A stretch of DNA of 64,000 nucleotides, taken from assembly GCF_000317065.1 (NCBI RefSeq), contig NC_019701.1, forward strand, positions 3,482,001 through 3,546,000, read 5' to 3'. Every line of letters begins with the position of its first letter. Positions within the stretch are counted from its first letter, which is position 1. Both the position numbers and the translations under genes were made by a program. This stretch comes from Pseudanabaena sp. PCC 7367 (GTDB taxonomy: Bacteria > Cyanobacteriota > Cyanobacteriia > Pseudanabaenales > Pseudanabaenaceae). Under the pieces are notes generated by a model. The model did no database searches. It saw only the letters and a program-made list of their open reading frames with translations, and was not told where the DNA came from. Below, piece by piece: positions 7,374-51,871 of the stretch.

Positions 7374-7589
7374 CCAAAGTCTACAAATGCTTATTTTTGA
7401 TTTCCAATTCAAGCTAAGTAATTACACCAGACTCGAAGCAGACTCTATTTAAAAGTATCAATAATCATCAAGTGGCGATCGTTATGCCTAACTGGTAAGC
7501 GATCGCTCTATATCAATCCTTTTATATCAATTCTTGGTAGTCCACCAGAAGTAAGGATAATAGTATAGAAGATACCAAAATTCCCTCTC

Positions 7590-8311
7590 ATGGATACATC
7601 AGAGCTAACTTGTCCAAAATGCAATTCATCTAAAATAGTCAAAAATGGCAGAATCCATAATGGCAAACAGAACTACAAGTGCAAGCATTGCGATCGGCAG
7701 TTTGTGGCCAATTGCGAGAAGAAATATATTTCTAGCGAGACTAAAGCGTTAATCGACAAACTTCTGCTAGAGCGAGTTTCACTGGCTGGAATTGCTAGAG
7801 TTGCAGATGTATCAGAAACATGGCTACAGCAATATGTTAATCAAAAATATGTCCAGGTGCCTCAACAAGTGCAGGTTCAGGACAAAAAAAGGGGTGCTTA
7901 ACACTCCAGCTTGATGAAATGTGGTCATTTGTAGAAAAGAAACAAGCCAAAGTTTGGATTTGGTTAGCCATAGATGTTGATACCAGAGAGATAGTAGGAA
8001 TGCATATCGGTTCGAGAGATGAAGATGGTGCTAAAGGATTATGGCAGTCTTTACCGCCAGTTTATCGACAATGTGCGGTTTGCTACACTGATTTTTGGCG
8101 TGCCTATGCTCAGGTAATTCCGAGCAAGCGCCATCAACCAGTTGGCAAAGGTTCAGGCTTAACTAATAGAATTGAGCGATTCAATTGCACACTTAGACAG
8201 AGAGCATCTAGGCTGGTTCGTAAAACTCTTTCTTTCTCAAAAAAGTTAGCTAACCATATTGGTGCACTCTGGCTTTTTATTCACTATTACAATTCATCCT
8301 TACTTGTTTAG
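7590..8311 (+). CDS. IS1-family transposase, InsA-InsB fused by -1 programmed frameshift
   Basis: The upstream frame (7590-7901, 103 aa) has an N-terminal zinc ribbon with CPKC and CKHC pairs followed by a helix-turn-helix region. This is the DNA-binding InsA part. The downstream frame (usable ATG at 7919, ends 8311) carries the DDE nuclease core: LDEMWSFV, then YTDFWRAY, then NRIERFN. The frames overlap at a run of seven A at 7884-7890. A -1 slip there reads on as KKKGCLTLQLDEMW, restoring the catalytic LQLDE segment that lies before the ATG at 7919. This matches the known IS1 strategy. Both frames look intact, so the element may be active. Confidence 0.93.
7884..7890 (+). other. -1 ribosomal frameshift site (A7 run)
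   Basis: Seven A residues followed by GGGG occur where the InsA frame overlaps the InsB frame, 9 nt before the InsA stop TAA at 7899. A -1 slip on AAA-AAA gives a continuous transposase. IS1-family elements are known to use A-rich slippery heptamers here. Confidence 0.8.
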
Positions 8312-8511
8312 CACTACCCAATTCTTGGATTGTTATTGATCATCTAGATACCCTAATCACTTAGTCAGAATTACTTAGTCAGAAAATGTTCTTGATCGAA
8401 TTGACCATGATTAATGAGCGTAGCTAAGTAGATCTCTGGTTTTGGTGATCATCGGTTGTTAGTTAATTAGTAGCAAAGGAGAAATTATTTTATTACTTCT
8501 TTTGCTGACTT

Positions 8512-34484: not shown

Positions 34485-34717
34485 GGTACTGCTGAATAGG
34501 TAAGGATTTGGGACATAATCAAATATCCACAACCTAGACTAACGCGATGTGCAACTAAAGAGTTGAAACCATTAGATCTTCGTTCTAAATAGTCTAGATG
34601 TTGAGATTTTGAGTAGCTCAAACAATGCAAAATCAATAGTCTATAAATAGTTGCACATGAGGTTAGACTATGAATTTAAAACCGATTATCAATTGCCCTT
34701 ACTACTGCATGACTATC
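34485..34717. mobile_element. Older IS1-type MITE (233 bp), non-coding
   Basis: The left end reads GGTACTGCTGAATAGGTAAG and matches the consensus of the IS1-type ends in this window at about 20 of 23 positions. The right end, read in reverse complement, is GATAGTCATGCAGTAGTAAG, close to the left end of the 51252 element. The flanks GGTGATTT (34477-34484) and GGTGGTTT (34718-34725) form an 8-bp duplication with one mismatch. Internally, a 23-bp inverted repeat (34535-34557 against 34648-34670, 19 of 23 matching) could form a long hairpin. No transposase frame is present. Confidence 0.75.
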
Positions 34718-51243: not shown

Positions 51244-51383
51244 ATTTACGCGGTAGTCATGCAGTAGTCATGCAGTAGTAAGGATAATTAGCAATCGATT
51301 TGCAATTCGGAGCTTAGCTTGTTTGGGTTATAGATATTCAACTATCGCCTAAATCCTTACTTGTTCAGCACTACCATTTACGC
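51244..51383. repeat. 8-bp target site duplication flanking the IS1-type MITE
   Basis: ATTTACGC occurs perfectly at 51244-51251 and 51376-51383, immediately outside GGTAGT and ACTACC. Confidence 0.92.
51252..51375. mobile_element. IS1-type MITE (124 bp), non-coding
   Basis: The left end (GGTAGTCATGCAGTAGT, an extra CATGCAGTAGT copy, then AAGGATAAT) and the right end (ATCCTTACTTGTTCAGCACTACC) match the ends of the IS1-family element at 7536-8318. After removing the 11-bp internal duplication, the left ends agree at 22 of 26 positions; the right ends agree in 21 of 23 positions. A perfect 8-bp target duplication flanks it. No transposase is encoded, so it would depend on an IS1-type transposase such as the one at 7590-8311. 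Confidence 0.9.
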
Positions 51384-51445: not shown

Positions 51446-51871
51446 ATGAATAGCTTCATTTTGATGGCAAATGTGGTGACAGAACCAGAACTGCGCTACA
51501 CCCCCGACAATCAAAACTCGTTGGCTACTTTTCTGGTGCAATTTCCCGGTGGCAATCGCCCCGAAGATCAACCGATTCGATTGAAGGTGACGGGCTGGAA
51601 TAATCTGGCCACTGAGATCATGGAAAAATATCACAAAGGCGATCAATTGGTGTTGGAGGGTCGCTTGGGCATGAACTCGATCGATCGGGGTGCCTATAAG
51701 GAAAAACGCGCCGAAATGACCGCCTCACGGATTTATGCGGTTGGTGGTAGCAGTGATGGCGATGGTTATAATGCTAGCCATGATGACTATGGCAGTGCTG
51801 CCCCTGCTCAGGTGCCTACGGCGGCTCCACCTGTTGCCAATAATCCTGAGTACGACGATATTCCGTTCTAG
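51446..51871 (+). CDS. ssb: Single-stranded DNA-binding protein
   Basis: The 141-residue protein has an N-terminal OB fold (about 1-100; SFILMANVVTEPELRYTPDN, FPGGNRPEDQPIRLKVTGW, GDQLVLEGRL) and a disordered Ala/Pro/Gly-rich linker ending in the acidic tail YDDIPF, the conserved SSB partner-binding tip. It coats single-stranded DNA and recruits repair and replication proteins. The start is ATG 51446, with AAGGTGAT at 51438-51444. Its upstream region carries the IS1-type MITE 70 bp away. Confidence 0.93.
   Translation: MNSFILMANVVTEPELRYTPDNQNSLATFLVQFPGGNRPEDQPIRLKVTGWNNLATEIMEKYHKGDQLVLEGRLGMNSIDRGAYKEKRAEMTASRIYAVGGSSDGDGYNASHDDYGSAAPAQVPTAAPPVANNPEYDDIPF

Follow-up and report, generated by a model that had tools for sequence, protein, structure and literature searches.

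Several described systems bear on small non-autonomous elements with IS-like ends. A 187-bp MITE of Microcystis is tied to ISL3 (PMC11448079), and archaeal MITEs include an IS1595-linked one; Table 4 of the archaeal study lists 18 MITEs, not one of them assigned to IS1 (PMC3852290). Nezha is described as an active cyanobacterial MITE (Zhou et al. 2008, as cited in PMC10969869), and in the work on MITEAba12 the IS1-family match is to IS copies at the borders of an 8.5-kb insert and does not involve MITEAba12 itself (PMC6382973). The IS1 of E. coli, taken here as the family reference, generates target duplications of 8–9 bp and is close to 768 bp long, and the same paper refers to preliminary observations of transposition by a mini-IS1 (IRL-cat-IRR) in E. 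coli (PMC12428005). Phrase searches of the open literature (ISfinder and subscription papers lie outside this scope) returned no paper on an IS1-partnered MITE, and MITEs partnered with IS1 elements seem to be little described.

The 64,000-nucleotide stretch of the Pseudanabaena sp. PCC 7367 genome analyzed here (hereafter the window) contains a 124-bp non-coding element at 51252..51375 (plus strand), upstream of ssb. This copy extends the 113-bp consensus by an 11-bp tandem repeat, and is bounded by the target-site duplication ATTTACGC at 51244..51251 on the left and 51376..51383 on the right (no strand assigned). At 113–124 bp, the element falls within the size range of MITEs (<500 bp, without a transposase ORF) and contains no ORF of at least 60 amino acids. 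Its left end, read directly from the sequence, carries two tandem 11-bp units of GTAGTCATGCA (51253..51274, plus strand), with a third GTAGT immediately after them (51275-51279), while its right terminal repeat (51353..51375, minus strand) reads GGTAGTGCTGAACAAGTAAGGAT on that strand. The ssb gene (51446..51871, plus strand; Pfam SSB, 9.8e-15) lies outside the element as downstream context, its ATG (51446) separated from the element by 70 bp. A preliminary description of this DNA had reported the 124-bp non-coding element with ATTTACGC on both sides, the tandem duplication at its left end, and its position 70 bp before the ssb start; all three hold, the duplicated unit being GTAGTCATGCA and the ORF being identified by its Pfam SSB match.

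This element belongs to a family of about 30 copies. A whole-genome search recovered 29 near-complete copies (84–100% identity, E-values around 5e-28 or better), all on the 4.56-Mb contig, and about five decayed or partial copies beyond these. The degraded copies include those at C2:3437345-3437439, C2:601710-601832, and around C2:4164176, a remnant beside C2:3973384, and a decayed copy within the window (34485..34717, minus strand) that is interrupted by a different repeat and whose flanks, AAACCACC and AAATCACC, agree at 7 of 8 positions. In its usual form the MITE is 113 bp long, and copies divide into two subfamilies, AATTAGC and AATTGGC. Several copies form pairs or trios of identical sequence, suggesting that the family spread recently. 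The end pattern matched the genome 97 times, against 5 matches for a reversed control pattern; together with the E-values, this places the match well outside what chance would give. Exact target duplications flank 19 of 28 aligned copies (17 of 8 bp, one of 7 bp, and one of 15 bp), and one further copy (L023) has an 8-bp duplication offset by a single G; the probability of an 8-bp flanking repeat arising by chance is ~3e-5 per copy. All 28 aligned copies are intergenic according to a simple ORF-based gene call, and when their flanks were joined, no copy was found to split an ORF of at least 120 amino acids. The expectation that an element of this kind would occur in many places with 8-bp duplications was thus borne out, with 29 near-complete copies and exact 8-bp duplications at 17 of the 28 aligned.

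Being short, intergenic, and palindromic at its ends, the element could be taken for a dispersed repeat unrelated to transposition, such as a REP-like palindrome. This reading is however refuted by the precise 8-bp target duplications, and we give it virtually no weight, as the ends are also common to the MITE and a full IS and no copy is found in the relatives searched.

Other repeats of similar size were observed alongside this family. The repeat that interrupts the decayed window copy is a second MITE-like sequence of ~124 bp, with ends ACGCGATGTGCAACTA and ACCTGGTGTGCAACTA (window positions about 34541-34666) and 7 copies in the genome; it is inserted into the decayed IS1-type MITE with a 7-bp duplication, TAGACTA. 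Separately, a 91-bp sequence (L205, C2:1665112-1665202) combines IS1-type ends and an 8-bp duplication, AAATAATG, with a different interior, and is possibly a second, rare IS1-type MITE. Within the main family, the second 124-bp copy (L013, C2:1308705-1308828) carries at its flanks a 15-bp direct repeat, ATTATTTCTAATCCT, in place of the 8-bp one.

A candidate source of transposase is present in the window itself, as a full 783-bp IS1-family element of an 84% subtype (7536..8318, plus strand) with the target duplication CAATTCTT. It encodes an insA-like ORF (7590..7901, plus strand; Zn_ribbon_InsA) and, in the -1 frame, an insB'-like ORF (7919..8311, plus strand; DDE_Tnp_IS1), with matches to PF03811 (InsA zinc ribbon, 8.1e-8) and PF03400 (IS1 DDE transposase, 5.3e-18). 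The -1 relation of the two ORFs over an A7-A8 run is consistent with a predicted -1 frameshift. The genome holds 13 full 783-bp copies, of which 11 are 99–100% identical and two, including the window copy, stand at 84%; intact 8-bp duplications remain at 8 of the 13. At 783 bp and with 8-bp duplications, the partner agrees with the 8–9 bp duplication, the length near 768 bp, and the insA/insB' arrangement expected of the IS1 family. Related IS1 elements of other cyanobacteria also have 8–9 bp duplications, and several measure 781–786 bp. They have in common the tip GGTAGT, joined in most by the inner box GTAAGGAT, and this tip and box are present at both ends of the MITE.

The IS copies also carry marks of their own history. 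One (L041, C2:2290761-2291542) has seven A, not eight, in the slippery run, a change that should prevent the fused transposase from being made. Two inverted copies, L044 (C2:1688917-1689698) and L043 (C2:1705199-1705981), share the duplications TATGAATC and AATAAATA crosswise, the signature of recombination between the two that inverted ~16 kb. Likewise, TAACTATA lies to the right of one IS copy and to the left of another (L038, C2:3758193, and L091, C2:4370747), which suggests another IS-mediated rearrangement.

The link between MITE and IS lies in the ends. These match the full IS elements at 25 of 26 and 21–22 of 23 positions, and within the MITE the left and right ends agree at most of the outermost 23 bp. 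For the window IS (7536-8318), the left-end score given in the preliminary description (22 of 26 after removal of the 11-bp repeat) was reproduced, while the right-end score of 21 of 23 needs correcting to 22 of 23; a value of 21 is what the 11-copy subtype gives. The proposed reading as an IS1-type MITE is supported, and Pfam matches, architecture, ends, and the length of the duplication all place the partner in the IS1 family. The ~64-bp middle of the MITE has no match to the resident IS elements, and two candidate sources of this interior were rejected: past the terminal repeats, alignments expected from internal deletion of a resident IS were no better than shuffles, and weak BLAST matches to the left ends of related cyanobacterial IS1 elements vanished against shuffles once the terminal repeat was excluded. 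Likeness confined to the terminal repeats is a pattern also known for archaeal MITEs (PMC3852290). None of the full IS elements found has exactly the MITE's ends, and the true parent may therefore be a lost third subtype.

Taken together, these sequence features very probably reflect a non-autonomous MITE whose IS1-type ends let the InsAB' of the resident 783-bp IS1 elements move it in trans, with an 11-bp unit born of slippage and a neutral position at ssb. We infer that the InsAB' transposase would act in trans on the MITE, binding the conserved inner box TAAGGAT and cutting at the outer tip GGTAGT. The element, whose middle carries no gene, would then join an AT-rich intergenic target through 8-bp staggered cuts, giving rise to the target duplication.

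The left end is also where the MITE copies vary in length, an unusual instability in steps of 11 bp. Its consensus, G-GTAGT-CATGCA-GTAGT-AAGGAT, contains GTAGT twice, 11 bp apart; the second motif is GAAGT in the 11-copy IS, and the nine aligned IS copies are uniform in length at this place. The 11-bp unit is absent from one copy (L020), occurs once in the normal form, and twice in the window copy and L013, while in another copy (L019) an additional GT stands at this variable spot, so that natural variants measure 102, 113, 115, and 124 bp. The interior of the 28 copies shows a single 1-bp gap. Four of five length changes fall within 22 of 113 positions (p = 0.006, in a test framed after seeing the data), a signal that weakens to p = 0.03 when the decayed copy L035, with two more insertions, is counted in. 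With the left end set aside, a single step separates the window copy from L010, and likewise L013 from L017; as L010 and L017 are both single-unit copies, the 11-bp duplication arose at least twice. An identical C-to-T change in both 11-bp units of L013 fits local duplication. For the duplications in the window copy and L013, the best account is slippage between the two GTAGT motifs of the left end, which lie 11 bp apart, through either slipped replication or recombination in a misaligned register. The preliminary description had offered slippage or an abortive event; the GTAGT repeats favor the former, and abortive transposition fits less well.

The shortest variant hints at another possibility, namely that the transposase might cut at either GTAGT motif. 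This 102-bp copy (L020) starts with AGTAGTAAGGAT and in all other respects has the sequence of L009, L011, and L012; the 8-bp duplication beside it, CTATCTTT, directly abuts the inner tip (the initial A of L020). Insertion from the inner motif explains this sequence in one step; slippage does so less easily, as GTAGT slippage would leave a G, not an A, before GTAGT. In a more general form, a transposase anchored on the TAAGGAT box could use a GTAGT tip about one helical turn further inward (L020) or outward (window copy and L013), and the duplications of both 124-bp copies do abut the outer tip. Inward use is however seen in one copy only, a slippage deletion plus one substitution would yield the same L020 sequence, and the 124-bp copies could equally have gained their unit after insertion, so that we regard such flexible end use as possible yet unlikely. 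Somewhat more doubtful still is the broader proposition that an IS1-type transposase recognizes the inner box and tolerates the tip at three spacings 11 bp (one helical turn) apart, in which case the 11-bp repeat would supply alternative ends and elements of 102–124 bp would still be mobile. With its near-identical autonomous partners and its 102-, 113-, 115-, and 124-bp variants, this family would offer a convenient natural test of the spacing tolerance of IS1 ends.

Slippage between GTAGT motifs remains our preferred origin for the 11-bp unit, and we likewise favor a neutral reading of the element's position at ssb. A promoter effect on ssb had been suggested in the preliminary description, and the proximity of the element, which ends 70 bp before the start codon, would agree with its retention as a source or modifier of a promoter or leader. 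The window copy read as RNA also folds into a long hairpin (z about −2.4), although this hairpin is a consequence of the inverted ends. Scans turned up neither a terminator-like site nor, within the element or downstream of it, any promoter-like site on the ssb strand; such sites are no commoner in the ssb-upstream region than in shuffled sequence, and the element has no Rfam match. Other copies of the MITE, moreover, adjoin genes in all orientations, and a regulatory role appears very improbable. Neutral residence is the simplest reading, and the window copy would most likely be an intergenic passenger.

Within the sets searched, the family was found in this genome only. No copies were detected in 57 relatives or in 390 genomes of the class, nor in a GTDB contig set searched by end pattern, in viral contigs, or in a plasmid set, three sets from which near relatives may be absent. 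The sets searched contain no second genome of the genus, the nearest genomes being from other genera. Among relatives, the closest ssb is 65% identical at the protein level and the upstream neighbor of ssb is conserved, yet the intergenic DNA upstream of ssb is not alignable across genera, and searching these other genera with the joined flanks for an unoccupied ssb site gave no meaningful alignment.

Compared with known systems, the MITE resembles the IS1 family (E. coli IS1 and the cyanobacterial GGTAGT...GTAAGGAT group) in its ends and 8-bp duplication, and the resident partner IS shares with this family the insA/insB' arrangement with a putative -1 frameshift; in contrast to these elements, the MITE is 113–124 bp long, lacks a transposase, and has an unrelated interior. 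Like the Microcystis (PMC11448079) and archaeal (PMC3852290) MITEs, it is short, non-coding, multicopy, and mostly intergenic, and matches its partner IS only in the terminal repeats, whereas its partner, unlike those of MITEs from other IS families, is an IS1 sensu stricto. MITEAba12 (PMC6382973) is likewise small and non-autonomous, with terminal repeats and target duplications, and Nezha is likewise described as an active MITE of cyanobacteria. Judged by the open literature searched, this well-formed family of IS1-partnered MITEs is new as a family, within a kind of element that is already known.
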